From NCBI GenBank assembly GCA_020718845.1, contig DYRG01000017.1, positions 1-47,451 of the forward strand: a stretch of DNA of 47,451 nucleotides. The letters are read 5' to 3'. Shown piece by piece: positions 32,072 through 37,595 of the stretch (the first letter of the stretch is position 1; the number at the start of each line of letters is the position of its first letter). The notes under the pieces were generated by a model that was given only the letters and a program-made list of their open reading frames with translations, had not been told where the DNA came from and did no database searches. Position numbers and translations under genes: made by a program. The DNA comes from Thiomargarita sp. (lineage in GTDB: Bacteria > Pseudomonadota > Gammaproteobacteria > Beggiatoales > Beggiatoaceae).

Positions 32072-32341
32072 TCAAAATTTTTGGAGTAGTTTCTCATATT
32101 CTCTGTGAGAACCAATCCAAAACCATACAATTTCATTATTATCAATGATTCCAACCGCTCTGTAATCAATATTGATTCGCACTGAGTAAATAGGTTTGCT
32201 CGAATGAACTCGTTTAAATTGTAGGCTTGGGTAATAGGGATTATTTTTGAACTGTGAATAAGCCATTTTTGCCTGTTTTTGAATGTCCACAGGTAAAGCC
32301 AGATATGTTTTCCAAAATTTTTCAGTGGCGTGTGAAATCAC
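32072..32341 (-). CDS. RelE/HigB-like toxin
   Basis: This 89-residue basic protein has the RelE/ParE-like pattern. An N-terminal helix pair (FWKTYLALPVDIQKQAKMAY) is followed by PSLQFKRVHSSKPIYSVRINIDYRAVGII and a WFWIGSHREYEKLL end. Family members are mRNA interferases or gyrase poisons, and which applies here cannot be told. GTG at 32341 overlaps the antitoxin stop (GTGA). The gene order is antitoxin first. Confidence 0.82.
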   Translation of the reverse strand: MISHATEKFWKTYLALPVDIQKQAKMAYSQFKNNPYYPSLQFKRVHSSKPIYSVRINIDYRAVGIIDNNEIVWFWIGSHREYEKLLQKF

Positions 32342-32556
32342 AATTTATCCAGCATTAAAGGCTTGGTTTTTCCTGCCCGATGTTCTTTTAGAGCTTCATT
32401 TGCAAGTTCCTCTAATAAATTCTCAGATTCTGCAAAACTAGAATCCCATTTTTTCTCTGCTAATAATTCACCCATTAACCATTTTGCAAGCCTATTTTGC
32501 TGTAGGTCTGGTAATTTCGCAGCTTCTGCAAATGCTTGTTCGAGTAATTGCGTCAT
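32338..32556 (-). CDS. antitoxin of the RelE-like pair
   Basis: This 72-residue acidic helical protein (MTQLLEQAFAEAAKLPDLQQ start) has a C-terminal HRAGKTKPL segment. This is a common antitoxin form found upstream of RelE-like toxins in cyanobacteria and filamentous gammaproteobacteria (recall). The stop overlaps the toxin GTG by four bases, the classic coupling of type II pairs. AAGGAATAACC forms the ribosome site. Autoregulation is likely but no operator is obvious. Confidence 0.8.
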   Translation of the reverse strand: MTQLLEQAFAEAAKLPDLQQNRLAKWLMGELLAEKKWDSSFAESENLLEELANEALKEHRAGKTKPLMLDKL

Positions 32557-32566
32557 TGGTTATTCC

Positions 32567-32689
32567 TTAAAAATAAATTTTCATAATTGAAACACTATAC
32601 AAATCTTGTAATTTACCTTCAAGTTTATGCAATCTGAGAGTTTGCGCTTTTCTCAGATATGAATCAGGCGTGATGAGTTGATAAGGCAT
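32567..32689 (-). pseudogene. internally deleted RelE-family toxin remnant
   Basis: A 40-codon frame begins MPYQLITPDSYLRKA and jumps to TLRLHKLEGKLQDLYSVSI, then ends after MKIYF. Both blocks match the start and middle of a RelE-type toxin. About 30 residues expected between them and the C-terminal third are missing. The ATG lies inside the 3' end of the Phd-like antitoxin gene, 26 bases before its stop codon ends, as in intact pairs. The toxin is almost certainly inactive. Confidence 0.75.
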
Positions 32690-32936
32690 CGTGTAATCTC
32701 TGAAGATGTGCATCAACTGATTCTATTGCGTAATGTCCAGCAACAATATCTGCTTTTGCTTGAGTTAAGGCAATTTCTAATTCAAGTTCTTGTAAATTTT
32801 GATATTTTTCAATATCCATAACCACAAAACGTTGTTTTCCACTAATTGAAATAGCGATTTCTGAGGCTTTTGCTAAAGCGGTTTCAATAATAGAAATGCC
32901 GTATGTTTTTAAATCATTTGCATCGATAGCATTCAT
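32664..32936 (-). CDS. Phd/YefM-type antitoxin, orphaned
   Basis: This 90-residue protein begins MNAIDANDLKTYGISIIETA and has the Phd/YefM form: an N-terminal DNA-binding fold with ISISGKQRFVVMDIEKYQNLQ near 29-50, then a toxin-wrapping C-terminal helix. Its partner toxin reading frame overlaps its 3' end but is deleted internally. It probably persists as an orphan antitoxin or repressor. A GAGGACATTACC ribosome site precedes the ATG. Confidence 0.82.
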   Translation of the reverse strand: MNAIDANDLKTYGISIIETALAKASEIAISISGKQRFVVMDIEKYQNLQELELEIALTQAKADIVAGHYAIESVDAHLQRLHDALSTHHA

Positions 32937-33023: not shown

Positions 33024-33416
33024 TCAAGGTAAGTTTCGGGGGTATTTTATAGGATTATTTGTAATAAGTAAAGACATTTTTAGGTTATCTATGGGGAGAG
33101 GAATATTTAAAGAAATAGAGGTGCTTTTTCTATAACCATTTTCTTGTAACCACGTCATAATATCTTGCCAATTATGTATTTTATCATGTTGAGTTAGTGT
33201 TTTAACGTAACGATAAATAGTATTAGAAATATCGACTTCAATTGATCCACATTCTCTTTGACGTTGATGAGCAATTTCACAGGGGCTTAATCCACACAAG
33301 AGACCTCTTAAATGAATTTTCTCTATTTTAGTTAATGATTTTCCTTTGATGCCTGCTAAATCCTGATAAAGTTGTTCAACATCCCAACACACACAAGCCT
33401 CATCAAAAAGTTCCAT
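33024..33416 (-). CDS. helix-turn-helix-like protein, possible regulator or adaptor of the caspase cluster
   Basis: The 130-residue product starts MELFDEACVCWDVEQLY at the ATG preceded by AAGGGAAAAAAC. A longer frame would begin at 33443 without a good ribosome site. Residues about 27-75 (SLTKIEKIHLRGLLCGLSP and a following CEIAHQRQRECGSIEVDISN stretch) look like a helix-turn-helix. From memory they resemble the N-terminal module that precedes AAA or vWA-MoxR-associated conflict proteins in cyanobacteria and filamentous gammaproteobacteria. The WQDIMTWLQENGYRK segment fits that module. Here it stands alone without an ATPase. It diverges from the caspase operon, with 121 bases between starts. 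Confidence 0.6.
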   Translation of the reverse strand: MELFDEACVCWDVEQLYQDLAGIKGKSLTKIEKIHLRGLLCGLSPCEIAHQRQRECGSIEVDISNTIYRYVKTLTQHDKIHNWQDIMTWLQENGYRKSTSISLNIPLPIDNLKMSLLITNNPIKYPRNLP

Positions 33417-33449
33417 GTTTTTTCCCTTTAATTTCCTAATCAAAACCTA

Positions 33450-33466
33450 ATGCTTTTCCTAAGCAT
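33450..33466. promoter_or_regulatory. inverted repeat in the divergent control region
   Basis: ATGCTT-TTCCT-AAGCAT is a perfect 6-bp inverted repeat in the 121-base gap between the helix-turn-helix-like gene and the caspase operon. It could be an operator, or a 5'-leader hairpin on the minus transcript. Confidence 0.35.
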
Positions 33467-33537
33467 CTTAGCTTCTTTTTCGTTCATAATTAAGATTAGT
33501 TTAAGTTTCATAATTTCACGAAAAAAAGGAGACTCAG

Positions 33538-34290
33538 ATGTTCACCTCAAAACTTTTAGCGGTCGCACTCGCCGCCACTTTCACGCTAACTGCTTGTAAT
33601 TCTAGCACAACTAAACCTGAAAATCTTGGAAAAGCGACTGGTCACGGACCGGAGACGGGTACCGTCTCTGATTCGTCCCCGATTGCAGAGCCGAAAAAAA
33701 TTAAAAAAGTCAGTCATCAAGAATCTGATTTTTCAGTGGTTTATTCGAAATTTGATCGATCGACGCAAGAAATTACCGATTTAGCAGAAGGAGATCGTTT
33801 GCGAGAAGGTGATCTCTATAAAATCAAAATTACCGCTGCAAAAGATTGTTTTGTCTATGTTTTTCAAATTGATGGTAAGGGTAAATTTTTCAATTTGATG
33901 GAGCACAATGATAAAAGATTCAAATTTAAACAATTAGACGCTGGACAAGACCTTAATTTACCAAGAGATGATCGATCTTACCGACTTGATGGCACTAAAG
34001 GCATGGAAAATATTTTTGTGGTGGTTTCTGATAAAGAAGACCCTAGTTTGGAAGGCTTTTATAGAAAACTTTCCACAGAAATCGCCCAATCTAACAAAAG
34101 ATCATCTAAAGACATTAAAGAAACAACGGCAAGGAAAAAAGGACCTGCCGATGGACTTGTTTCAGATAAAACGGGAACTGTCATTAAACATAGTGAAGTT
34201 AATTTAGAAGGAAAAGTTTCTGAACAAAAGATTTCTTGTGAAGAACAGCGCGCTTGCGCAAGTAGTATCGCTTTTTATAACAATATGTAG
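33538..34290 (+). CDS. DUF4384-like lipoprotein
   Basis: This 250-residue lipoprotein has a signal peptide with lipobox LTAC (17-20), so the mature protein starts at Cys20. Residues about 60-165 resemble DUF4384: YSKFDRSTQEITDLAEGDRL, then DLYKIKITAAKDCFVYVFQID and a central Asp/Leu-rich segment. DUF4384 domains are often coupled to caspase-like or kinase domains. The C-terminal part is Lys/Thr-rich and ends with a CEEQRAC pair of Cys. An AAAAAAAGGAGACTCAG ribosome site precedes the ATG. It is the first gene of the exported caspase set. The assignment rests on remembered family pattern. Confidence 0.7.
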   Translation: MFTSKLLAVALAATFTLTACNSSTTKPENLGKATGHGPETGTVSDSSPIAEPKKIKKVSHQESDFSVVYSKFDRSTQEITDLAEGDRLREGDLYKIKITAAKDCFVYVFQIDGKGKFFNLMEHNDKRFKFKQLDAGQDLNLPRDDRSYRLDGTKGMENIFVVVSDKEDPSLEGFYRKLSTEIAQSNKRSSKDIKETTARKKGPADGLVSDKTGTVIKHSEVNLEGKVSEQKISCEEQRACASSIAFYNNM

Positions 34291-34385
34291 TTTCTTTTCT
34301 TCCGATTTACCTATAGAAAAACTACGTTTAACCTGATTTTTACTTAATTTAATTATTTTCTTTTTTTAATCATAAGGATTTAACC

Positions 34386-35351
34386 ATGAAACTTTTTTCT
34401 AAAACGCTTTTAAGTACCGCTGTGCTTTCTTGTTTTTCTCTCCCTTCTCATGCTGATATTTATACGATGGGCATAGAGTATTGCAAAAATAATTTAGGGG
34501 GGTGTGGTCTTGAAGAAGTCGCTGAATTTGCTTTTGATGACAAAAAATGTGACAACCCAACTAAAGAACCTTTCACCACCCTTTGTAGAAACTTTAAAGC
34601 TAAATTAGATGCTTATCGACCACAGGCTGGAGATGTTGTTCAAAGGAACGATGTAAAAAAAGATATATCAATGTGCATGAATTCCACAAATACATCAGAT
34701 ACTTATTGTGTTGGTATTCAAGAGGCTGTTAAAAACTCAATAAAGGGTAAATATCTGGAAATAACTGCTGTTGAAAAATGTATTCAAGATGGTGAAACCA
34801 CTTGTAAGCAACCTGTAGTAAATAAAGTGAATGACTGCGTTAATTCTACTGATACAACAAATAATTATTGCAACGATATTAAGGCTAAAATAACACCTAA
34901 ATATACCTTAACAACTAGTTGTGGTACTAGCAGCAGTAGTGCTCCTTCTTCATGTTCCAATACTGACATACAAAACAAAGTGAAGAAATGTATTGGTCTT
35001 ACCAATGAAACTCCGTCTATATTTGATAATAAACATTCAGAGAATAGTGAGTGCAATGCTCTTAGAGATGGTGTGATAAATCAAAAATATATTTGGAAAG
35101 ATAATGCCAAAAGTTATGCTTTCTTAGCTTCTACAAATCCTGGAGATGACGCGCTTTTTATACCTAGCATCGATAGTGGTGCTCTTACACTGGAAAACTC
35201 TCCTCTTACCCCAATAGATTTTAATAATAGAAAGCAAAATAGAATACCTTTCAAATGGGTACTAAAATCTGACTCCAAATGTGGAACTGTTATTGGATTG
35301 GTAGATGGTGATAAACCAAAGGTGAGTAACATTAAATGTGATCTTGATTAA
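34386..35351 (+). CDS. cysteine-rich secreted repeat protein
   Basis: This exported protein of 321 residues has a signal peptide (1-23, ending SHA). Its function is not recognised. The mature part has 16 cysteines, an even number that suits disulfides. An opening GIEYCKNNLGGCGLEE motif is followed by diverged repeats of the form C-x-N-S-T-x-T-x3-Y-C (near 98-109 and 151-162), each followed by K-Y about 15 residues on. A third copy near 198-230 is looser. The opening Cys motif matches the C-K-x5-C-G repeat of the secreted protein at 306-1796. An AAGGATTTAACC site precedes the ATG. It lies 95 bases after the lipoprotein gene. Confidence 0.7.
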   Translation: MKLFSKTLLSTAVLSCFSLPSHADIYTMGIEYCKNNLGGCGLEEVAEFAFDDKKCDNPTKEPFTTLCRNFKAKLDAYRPQAGDVVQRNDVKKDISMCMNSTNTSDTYCVGIQEAVKNSIKGKYLEITAVEKCIQDGETTCKQPVVNKVNDCVNSTDTTNNYCNDIKAKITPKYTLTTSCGTSSSSAPSSCSNTDIQNKVKKCIGLTNETPSIFDNKHSENSECNALRDGVINQKYIWKDNAKSYAFLASTNPGDDALFIPSIDSGALTLENSPLTPIDFNNRKQNRIPFKWVLKSDSKCGTVIGLVDGDKPKVSNIKCDLD

Positions 35352-35426
35352 TAACCTACTCATTGGGGTTTTCACTCCAACGAGGAAAGTTAAGAAAATT
35401 ACTTCCCCTTTAGATAACAAAAGGAC

Positions 35427-36347
35427 ATGAACAAGATGAGCCTGTTTAAACAGTTAGTAGTGTTGGTTATTTTTTGCAATAGTTCATTAGCAAATGCTGG
35501 ATATGATGATAATATTATCACTGATAAAGATAATAAGCTGGGTGATGAGCTAATTTTGCCTAAAAAAGAATTGGAATGGAGCATTACGCCGCGTTTATTA
35601 ACGGGGGTTATGTATTTCAAACATATTACTCTCAATAGAATGAATTTAAGCAATAAACCCGTTGCATTTGGGGGGCTGGGATTAAATGTTAACCTCGATA
35701 AATGGTTCTTATATGGATATGGTTTAGATACGGCTAAAACAAGTGACCATATTTTTGAACCAGAAGAACGAAATTTATCCGAATCAAATTATGTTTTTCA
35801 ACGCCAAGATTATGCAGTTACTCTTGGGAGAGAAATTAGTGATTTATTCAGTGATTCTAAAATTTGGAGTATGTCTTTATTTGCAGGCTATCGCTACGGT
35901 AAAACAAAAGTACAATCAACTGCTGTAACTTTTAATAGTAGTTTAGCTGGTATTTCCGATTCTTTATTAGTAGGTTCAATACAATATTCAGCACAAGGTC
36001 CTTTGGCGGGAATAGGATTAAAAATGAAACCTTTTGGTGAAAAATCTACTAGTCAACTAGGTTTAAGTGTGGGTTATGGACCATTAAAAGGTAAATATCT
36101 TCGTGTTGATAGTAATATTTTATTAAACACAGTTGTTAACAATGATAATAGAACAACTAACACAGGAGCATGGATTGTAGGATTAAGTTGGGAAGGACAA
36201 TTTAAAAATAATCCTCAACTAAGTTATGGTTTTGTAGTGGATTATTATGCTTACAATGTGGAGGTTGCGCAAGATAATGACCTTACTGCAAATTTAAAAG
36301 AATCTGTAGGAAGTTTGAAAGCATTTTTGAATTATCATTTCAAGTAA
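35427..36347 (+). CDS. predicted outer-membrane beta-barrel protein
   Basis: This 306-residue precursor has a signal peptide (1-23, ending ANA). The mature protein is an alternation of amphipathic strands and turns (KWFLYGYGLDTAK, SLFAGYRYGKTKV, QLGLSVGYGPLKG, PQLSYGFVVDYYAY) ending with FLNYHFK, where an aromatic near the C-terminus fits a barrel signal. Length and strand count suggest about 10-12 strands. I do not recognise the family. AAAAGGAC lies directly before the chosen ATG. Another Met three codons on is possible. It lies 14 bases before the caspase gene, so the two are surely co-expressed. Confidence 0.7.
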   Translation: MNKMSLFKQLVVLVIFCNSSLANAGYDDNIITDKDNKLGDELILPKKELEWSITPRLLTGVMYFKHITLNRMNLSNKPVAFGGLGLNVNLDKWFLYGYGLDTAKTSDHIFEPEERNLSESNYVFQRQDYAVTLGREISDLFSDSKIWSMSLFAGYRYGKTKVQSTAVTFNSSLAGISDSLLVGSIQYSAQGPLAGIGLKMKPFGEKSTSQLGLSVGYGPLKGKYLRVDSNILLNTVVNNDNRTTNTGAWIVGLSWEGQFKNNPQLSYGFVVDYYAYNVEVAQDNDLTANLKESVGSLKAFLNYHFK

Positions 36348-36361
36348 AAAAGGAGCGTATC

Positions 36362-37471
36362 ATGTGTAAGAAACCGTTAGTATTAGCGACCTTATTTTCA
36401 TTAGGTTCAATAAATCAAATAGCGATTGCAGAAGATTTAAATTGTAATCAATATCAAGCGGCAGAAGAATCGATTAAAAATCTATCTTCAGTTGAGAATT
36501 TAGCCGTTGTTATCGGCAATGGTAATTACGAACAGGAAGGTAAAAAATCTGTTTGGGGAAACTTAAAACTTACCAGAACAGATTCCCAAAAAATGCGAGA
36601 TCAATTTTCTAAAAATAACTTCCATGTTCTTTATAAAGAAGATGCGACTAAAAATGATATGGATAGCTTAGTTTGTAAGATGGGTTATTTTTTAAAACAT
36701 CATTCTTCTATAAATACGGTTGCATTTTATTTCTCTGGTCATGGAACAAGTGATCCAGTAAATAAAGATAATTTATTAGTTCCAACTGATATGGATTTCA
36801 TTCCTATGTATTCGGGGGCTATTAATTGTAATGGTGAAGAAAAAGGCAACGAAATTTGTAAAAAACTTTTTGAAGAACGTGATTGTGATAAGGATACTTG
36901 TAAAATTGAAGGTTATGAAGGAAAAGTTTTAAATGTTGAGACAATTCTTCAAACAATGAAAAATTACTATCCTAAAGATTCAAATGGAAAACCATTAACA
37001 GAATCTAAGCGTAATCATTTAGTGCTTTTAGACGCTTGTCGATCAAATGGAATTTCAGAAGTTGCTAAAGATAAAGCAATTCAAATTGCTGAAAAAATTA
37101 CTAAAGGATTAAAAAAAGGTCCAATAGACATTATTCCTACTTTAGCGATAACTAAATCTACATTAGGAACAATGGGTGTGGCTTCTTCTGCAACAGATTT
37201 ACCCAATTCACTAATTGGTTTTGCAGCAGGTATTGGAAAAAGTGCGATTGAATTTGAGAACGCTGAAAATAGTGTTTATACGCAATATTTACTTAAACAT
37301 ATTTTTGATAAAAGCGTCACCTTGAAACAGGCTTTAGATCAAGTGATTGTGAGTGTAAAACGACAAACTTCTATTCTAAAAGAAACCCAAGTTCCTCGAT
37401 ATGATGCTTCGTTAGAAGATGAAATTTACTTAGGCGGGCAACAAAAACTAGATTTTGCTCCTGGTGGTTAA
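36362..37471 (+). CDS. secreted caspase-like protease (peptidase C14 / metacaspase-like)
   Basis: This 369-residue precursor has a signal peptide (1-24) and an exported C14 domain. NLAVVIGNGNYEQ near 46-58 opens the fold. LKLTRTDSQKMRDQF follows. The catalytic dyad is His127 in FYFSGHGTSD and Cys226 in LVLLDACRSNG, both intact. An insertion between them contains six Cys (near 156-180), unusual for the family and suited to an oxidising compartment. No Walker or repeat domain is fused. AAAAAAGGAGCG is a strong ribosome site. It is the last gene of the four-gene exported set, closed by a terminator. Substrate and trigger are unknown. Confidence 0.85.
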   Translation: MCKKPLVLATLFSLGSINQIAIAEDLNCNQYQAAEESIKNLSSVENLAVVIGNGNYEQEGKKSVWGNLKLTRTDSQKMRDQFSKNNFHVLYKEDATKNDMDSLVCKMGYFLKHHSSINTVAFYFSGHGTSDPVNKDNLLVPTDMDFIPMYSGAINCNGEEKGNEICKKLFEERDCDKDTCKIEGYEGKVLNVETILQTMKNYYPKDSNGKPLTESKRNHLVLLDACRSNGISEVAKDKAIQIAEKITKGLKKGPIDIIPTLAITKSTLGTMGVASSATDLPNSLIGFAAGIGKSAIEFENAENSVYTQYLLKHIFDKSVTLKQALDQVIVSVKRQTSILKETQVPRYDASLEDEIYLGGQQKLDFAPGG

Positions 37472-37478
37472 ATTTTTG

Positions 37479-37595
37479 CTAAACTTGAGGCGGAATAAAA
37501 AGTCCGCCTTTTTTATTGATTTCTTTTTTTGTGTCCGATACGAATTGGCGTTGTTTTGCCAATAAGAAACGAATTAAAGTAAGCCTTTCAGACAT
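37479..37595 (-). pseudogene. fragment derived from a gspE-like gene
   Basis: A 38-codon frame reads LIRFLLAKQRQFVSDT, close to IRFLLGKQVQFVSGT of the intact gspE at 31800-31860. About 40 of 46 bases match between 37535-37580 and 31815-31860 by eye. Nothing else of GspE is recognisable here. It overlaps the terminator of the caspase operon. It looks like the residue of a decayed paralogue or a small duplication. Confidence 0.55.
37488..37516 (+). terminator. terminator of the caspase operon
   Basis: AGGCGGA (37488-37494) and TCCGCCT (37503-37509) form a perfect 7-bp stem followed by seven T. Confidence 0.9.

Follow-up and report, generated by a model that had tools for sequence, protein, structure and literature searches.

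Introduction

The literature on bacterial caspases usually treats them as proteases of death or stress, and bacterial metacaspases are often given a role in programmed death. We analyzed a 47,451-nt stretch of Thiomargarita sp. DNA (contig DYRG01000017.1, assembly GCA_020718845.1; this whole stretch is called the window below), in which a caspase (CASP) is encoded together with a DUF4384 lipoprotein (LPP), a Cys-rich protein (CYS), and a barrel protein (BAR). CASP shares with orthocaspases and metacaspases the p20/p10 domain, the His-Cys dyad, and an Asp located two residues N-terminal to the Cys. Also shared are signal-like helices at the N terminus and operons that include envelope proteins: a 2012 survey found such helices on many metacaspases, OmpA in 14 metacaspase operons, and other operons with surface proteins (PMC3501461). 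A single cell of Thiomargarita nelsonii was reported to carry 59 metacaspases of unexplained role (PMC4853749), and the large caspase numbers of giant and filamentous sulfur bacteria are likewise unexplained.

What sets the window locus apart from the described metacaspases is its fixed set of partners: a barrel, a Cys-loop repeat protein, and a DUF4384 protein. We found no account of this set in the open literature on DUF4384 with caspases, on metacaspases with Beggiatoa, and on exported caspases with outer-membrane partners, in a search that covered 5.4 million open papers. Exported metacaspases are already known; the fixed cassette was not found described, in keeping with an earlier reading of this DNA (here, the original prediction) that knew of no description of the combination.

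Three other described systems are comparable. The type IX secretion proteins PorU and PorV also pair a caspase-fold enzyme with an outer-membrane barrel and modular exported cargo, and PorV is a FadL-like barrel with 14 strands. However, the cassette enzyme is of family C14 rather than C25, its barrel has 10 predicted strands and is not of the FadL type, its hosts are Gammaproteobacteria rather than Bacteroidota, and the common C-terminal sorting domain is not seen in the CYS cargo. We excluded a type IX secretion system proper on the missing C25 match and on the omptin-like 10-strand barrel that stands in place of a FadL-type one. The omptins (OmpT and Pla) and OpcA share the modeled 10-strand fold of BAR, but BAR differs from omptins in having neither a sequence family match nor a conserved His, and it does not show the catalytic Asp-His and Asp-Asp pairs. 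Bacterial gasdermin operons likewise encode a protease beside a pore-type membrane protein. However, the cassette parts are exported, the membrane protein is a beta-barrel and not a gasdermin, and a variable repeat surface protein is present.

We suggest that the window holds one copy of a Beggiatoaceae cell-envelope cassette that would make and tailor a surface repeat protein. We give a probability of about one half to a cassette for surface-protein display at the outer membrane, in which the caspase, by analogy Arg/Lys-specific, would process the repeat protein as its presumed substrate.

Results and Discussion

The four genes recur as a unit

It is strongly supported that the four genes form a recurrent unit. 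BAR alone, used as a query against 144 relatives, found 11 other loci, two of which (G001:C205 and G011:C112) are near-identical, leaving 10 distinct loci. A caspase gene lies within 3 kb at 9 of these 10, against 0.22 expected from the caspase density of each genome (P for 9 or more, about 7e-15). A barrel family profile, searched against all 43 family (Beggiatoaceae) genomes, found another 24 loci in 13 genomes at scores over 100 bits. Here, a clear caspase lies within 3.5 kb at 21 loci and a weak caspase-like gene at 1, and 2 loci are at contig edges. The BAR-only search is the unbiased test, because the profile included a few loci chosen for a nearby caspase or CYS. Barrel relatives within the same GTDB family include ones from Thiomargarita and Candidatus Parabeggiatoa. 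Adjacency of barrel and caspase is kept despite opposite gene orientation at five loci (L056, L058, L060, L069, and L123). Barrel and caspase distances are correlated (Mantel rho, 0.50, reached by 9 of 5,000 permutations), and shared species history may contribute to this value.

The exact order LPP-CYS-BAR-CASP is complete in the window and in three other Beggiatoaceae genomes, which represent two Parabeggiatoa species and genus g7. These loci carry three LPP genes (G038:C378) or two (G040:C418 and G006:C80), and the intervals between genes in the complete loci are for the most part short, some neighbors overlapping by 4 bases. The g7 cassette includes an OmpA-family gene. Thiomargarita has fragments of the set, and split or contig-cut pieces are found in G001 and G036. 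The genome of the window (assembly size, 2.98 Mb) has a second copy, in which a barrel and then a caspase follow a short CYS, in the same order (G000:C59). Recurrence of the four genes had been named beforehand in the original prediction as the check on its proposal, and the same order was indeed found in relatives.

Two observations concern copies in other genomes. At three Parabeggiatoa loci (L128:9072-10406, L129:6491-7825, and L132:5263-6681), the barrel adjoins a periplasmic ligand-binding lipoprotein (ANF_receptor/Peripla_BP_6, PF13458) and at least one caspase, which suggests a sensing variant of the cassette. Near-identical cassette contigs (L061 and L062) occur in G011 and G001, which are different genera that are both labeled Thiomargarita; the explanation is either that the contig was transferred recently or that binning or naming went wrong.

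BAR resembles omptins in its predicted fold

An AlphaFold model of BAR, made with five sequences, has ten strands over residues 52 to 303 (pLDDT, 69; pTM, 0.64). Its best PDB matches are omptins (OmpT, Pla, and pOmpT; Z, 21 to 22), Legionella porin I (Z, 20.9), and OpcA (Z, 17 to 19), and the Z values of FadL and autotransporter barrels are close to 10. The model strongly supports the predicted outer-membrane type barrel and gives it an omptin/OpcA-like fold. Neither BAR nor CYS had a meaningful family match in Pfam, NCBIfam, PADLOC, or PHROGs. We rejected an active omptin protease. There is no conserved His column among 13 aligned barrels, and BAR is therefore not an omptin-type protease; in addition, no member of the barrel family matches the omptin Pfam family. 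The conserved charged positions of BAR are R56, R126, D128, D272, and E292.

Lower-scoring barrel relatives, mostly of about 240 to 300 aa, occur in many family genomes and are mostly without caspases, which makes the caspase-linked form look like one offshoot of a widespread family of envelope barrels. Around barrel relatives in other Gammaproteobacteria, none of seven regions read had a caspase nearby, and a search of 398 genomes across the phylum gave only two weak matches outside the family.

A second, unrelated barrel-like exported protein is encoded directly 3' of a caspase gene in G032 (L068:6887-7861) and in the genome of the window, at the end of contig C46 (L070:5638-6030). In another gammaproteobacterium (L158:178-2957), a CYS-like protein (YQQGFKEGMRYC.., with an LYVPYV motif) and a distant barrel relative lie within 3 kb. 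This pair adjoins a Ser/Thr kinase-like gene, and a caspase is not the neighbor.

CYS relatives carry repeats

CYS had been described as a 16-Cys repeat protein. The mature part (N terminus, DIYTMGIEYC) does contain 16 Cys and diverged repeats, but the total, with the signal peptide, is 17. The motif [YFL]xxG[FIY]xx[GC] is present in 17 of 18 CYS-slot proteins compared, mostly directly after the signal peptide; the sole exception is an open reading frame (ORF) whose assigned start probably lies too far 3'. This N-terminal motif forms the first unit of tandem repeats in Parabeggiatoa, genus g7, and the Thiomargarita group. The repeats are based on an eight-residue loop (such as CQNDPASC, CQTNPASC, or CRSNPASC; general form, CxxNPxxC), and the linkers are 17 to 21 residues long. 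The Parabeggiatoa repeats are also in-frame tandem arrays at the DNA level (78 and 75 bp, with 88 and 93% matches, respectively) and have therefore changed recently and in frame. Other members of the slot have InlB-B repeats (PF18998), and one has FN3-like modules (weak Pfam matches).

Together, these sequences strongly support a slot for modular, length-variable repeat proteins of the surface type, as in surface adhesins. Because the proteins are exported and their Cys are paired, the loops are probably disulfide-bonded. A porin-cytochrome conduit was considered and rejected, as CXXCH heme motifs are absent from the window CYS and from eight relatives checked.

The modular cargo raises the question of whether the cassette works in the manner of PorU and PorV. 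Such a resemblance would suit the joint encoding of a caspase-fold enzyme, an outer-membrane barrel, and surface cargo, and also the caspase being itself a lipoprotein in many copies. We consider it unlikely, however. The enzyme is C14 and not C25, the modeled barrel has 10 strands against the FadL-like 14 of PorV, and nothing points to transpeptidation. Furthermore, the CYS-slot proteins have no C-terminal sorting domain common to all, and an LYIPxV-type motif is present in only part of the 18.

CASP is an exported C14 caspase

In a Pfam scan, CASP matched Peptidase_C14 (PF00656; E, 9e-22) and had no C25 match. Its profile also matched structures of the paracaspase MALT1 along the greater part of the caspase domain (E, 2e-29). 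An alignment of 18 caspases showed no change at His127, Cys226, or Asp224, so the dyad is intact, as had been proposed. The Cys-rich insertion of the window CASP, in contrast to its earlier description as a feature of the system, is missing from most relatives in this alignment. Orthocaspases cleave after positively charged residues (PMC6426788), and by this analogy CASP would be expected to cut after Arg or Lys. The invariant Asp224 and the MALT1-like match would suit the acidic S1 pocket that goes with such specificity.

All four products of the cassette are predicted from their Sec signals to leave the cytoplasm. CASP begins with a Sec-type signal (..AIA, then ED). Partner caspases mostly have SPI or lipobox signals, with a lipobox in many (for example, LFQG before CT, LAS before CA, and LSG before CI) and a cleavable signal elsewhere. 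Export signals on these caspases and their neighbors, identified by simple rules, agree with the original prediction. However, its view that an exported caspase is unusual was not borne out. Every caspase examined in the genome of the window with a readable N terminus begins with an export signal, and exported caspases are therefore the rule here; there is also the precedent cited above (PMC3501461). One further caspase of this genome, which lies beside a WD40-like reading frame, contains a TAA stop in frame and appears to be a pseudogene (G000:C12:17952-18653; L007 and L152).

Two alternatives were weighed. The first is an envelope death or stress device, in which a damage-activated exported caspase would cut a barrel plug or envelope proteins and open the outer membrane. 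The protease does adjoin a membrane pore protein, loosely as in gasdermin operons, and filamentous and giant sulfur bacteria have many metacaspases (59 in T. nelsonii, PMC4853749). We nevertheless judge a death device improbable, since the barrel is not gasdermin-like, all parts are exported, the set is without regulatory death domains, and the variable repeat protein would be left unexplained. The second is nutrient scavenging, with an exported protease and a porin that digest and import external protein. In Betaproteobacteria, metacaspases have been proposed to degrade protein outside the cell (PMC4933709), and the copies beside the PF13458 lipoprotein would fit such a role. But a single Arg/Lys-specific protease would be a poor general digester, and scavenging would explain neither the conserved Cys-loop repeat slot nor its fast repeat turnover, and we judge it improbable as well. 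Our results suggest that the Beggiatoaceae caspases of this set function at the surface of the cell instead of serving as suicide enzymes inside it.

LPP and other DUF4384 loci

LPP is the DUF4384-like lipoprotein of the original prediction: its PF14326 match in a Pfam scan has an E of 2e-9 and 37.8 bits, compared with a curated cut-off of 27, and its lipobox reads as proposed. In a DUF4384 profile search, the LPPs of the complete loci and of the contig-cut pieces formed the top group, above 190 bits, and the rest scored below 157 bits. A structure model of LPP has an Ig-like sandwich at residues 64 to 165 (top Z, 8.4). This fold is generic and uninformative, and we dropped it as a clue to function.

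Three other loci in the genome of the window (G000:C93, L149; G000:C104, L150; G000:C110, L151) share with the cassette an exported caspase, a DUF4384 protein, and an exported envelope protein. They differ in that a peptidoglycan-binding OmpA-family protein replaces the barrel and the Cys-loop protein, and in that their caspases are fusions with PEGA, WD40, or FGE-sulfatase domains. These loci agree with the OmpA operons of the 2012 survey (PMC3501461). The same set of a caspase, a DUF4384 protein, and an OmpA-family protein occurs in a second family genome, G003 (see L148).

A proposal for how the cassette works

In a fuller form, which we offer tentatively, the cassette would be an undescribed machine for surface-protein maturation or display. 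A C14 caspase, often an outer-membrane lipoprotein, a dedicated 10-strand barrel, and a DUF4384 lipoprotein would act on a hypervariable disulfide-loop repeat protein. BAR, as modeled, would sit in the outer membrane as the 10-strand barrel. Under the E. coli Lol rule, a lipoprotein is destined for the outer membrane unless Asp follows its lipidated Cys. Because the residue at this position is not Asp, LPP, and in many relatives the caspase as well, would be lipidated and sent to that membrane. CYS, with short disulfide loops on flexible linkers, may reach the outer-membrane or surface space. Judging from relatives with InlB-B and FN3-like modules, it probably acts as an adhesin, stalk, or recognition layer. 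The caspase might clip CYS, or its docking to BAR or LPP, and so bring about maturation, anchoring, or release. The periplasmic or surface proteolysis machine imagined in the original prediction fits the recurrent set and its exported partners, and the interpretation given there is, as a whole, partly supported.

Several points weigh against this proposal. A 10-strand barrel is too narrow for an obvious protein channel. The CYS of the window holds weak, old repeats only: it has one canonical loop, its repeats are diverged (protein self-similarity of 64, with shuffled sequences reaching at most 55), and no tandem repeat was found in the DNA of its gene. Arg and Lys in the linkers between Cys loops are not above the composition expectation, with the exception of one protein, and cleavage sites are therefore not visible in the sequence. 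Some barrel-caspase pairs have other exported neighbors in place of a recognizable CYS or LPP, for instance the ligand-binding lipoprotein at L128, L129, and L132. Finally, the export signals were assigned by simple rules instead of a trained predictor.

The cassette assigns fixed exported partners and a candidate substrate to one group of sulfur-bacterial caspases, whose purpose becomes testable through expression of the four genes. If the proposal is right, it gives a concrete job other than death to some of the caspases that giant sulfur bacteria carry by the dozen. It would also add to type IX secretion a second case in which a caspase-type enzyme handles surface proteins beside an outer-membrane barrel.

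Layout of the window locus

The predicted plus-strand set of four genes with export signals stands, with ORFs from 33538 to 37471 and intergenic gaps of 95, 75, and 14 bases (Table 1). A terminator follows the set (37487 to 37510). The terminator scan overall yields no more than shuffled sequence does, but this stem is aptly placed after the last stop. No sigma-70-like site was found in the region upstream of LPP (33417 to 33537). The cassette genes are AT-richer than nearby gspE, PP2C, and nagZ (GC, 0.32 to 0.38 versus 0.42 to 0.46). Checks of the cassette for plasmid carriage and phage origin gave no match and no PHROGs match, respectively.

Table 1. Features of the cassette locus and its flank (positions in the window)
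Feature	Position	Strand	Basis
LPP: DUF4384 lipoprotein, 250 aa, lipobox LTAC then N	33538..34290	+	Pfam, sequence
CYS: exported Cys-rich repeat protein, 321 aa	34386..35351	+	Slot motif common with relatives; diverged internal repeats
BAR: putative outer-membrane beta-barrel, 306 aa including signal peptide, 10 predicted strands	35427..36347	+	AlphaFold, structure matches, caspase-linked family
CASP: exported C14 caspase (orthocaspase/paracaspase-like), 369 aa, His127-Cys226 dyad, Asp224	36362..37471	+	Pfam, alignment
Intrinsic terminator closing the operon	37487..37510	+	8-pair stem, GAGGCGGAATAAAAAGTCCGCCTT, then T-rich tail
Intergenic region, 121 bases, between the operon and the divergent gene	33417..33537	.	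Sequence
Divergent helix-turn-helix (HTH)-like protein, 130 aa from its ATG; judged outside the system	33024..33416	-	Multicopy family

The divergent gene

In the original prediction, the HTH-like protein resembles conflict-system modules and shares the control region of the set. It belongs to a family of proteins of about 130 to 170 aa that is multicopy in Beggiatoaceae, with relatives in 17 of the 43 family genomes and up to 20 matches in one genome. Neither the window protein nor a relative had a Pfam match, and there was no PHROGs match. No relatives were found beside the first-examined batch of cassettes. Because the relatives are scattered, multicopy, and absent from those cassettes, we do not regard the gene as a component.

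This also bears on an anti-phage or conflict cassette under control of the HTH-like protein, at which the original prediction had hinted. The genes are AT-rich, toxin-antitoxin genes lie upstream, and the distribution is patchy and multicopy, all of which would suit defense. However, the parts carry export signals, the partners are surface-type proteins, and the HTH-like gene is unlinked to the first-examined cassettes of relatives. PADLOC gave only a weak match to its generic caspase model (PDLC02987 'caspase'; E, 0.002). We therefore consider a defense role very unlikely.

Just upstream of the divergent gene, at 32072 to 32936, the window encodes a ParE-like toxin and its partner, as well as a Phd/YefM-like antitoxin that is separate from them.

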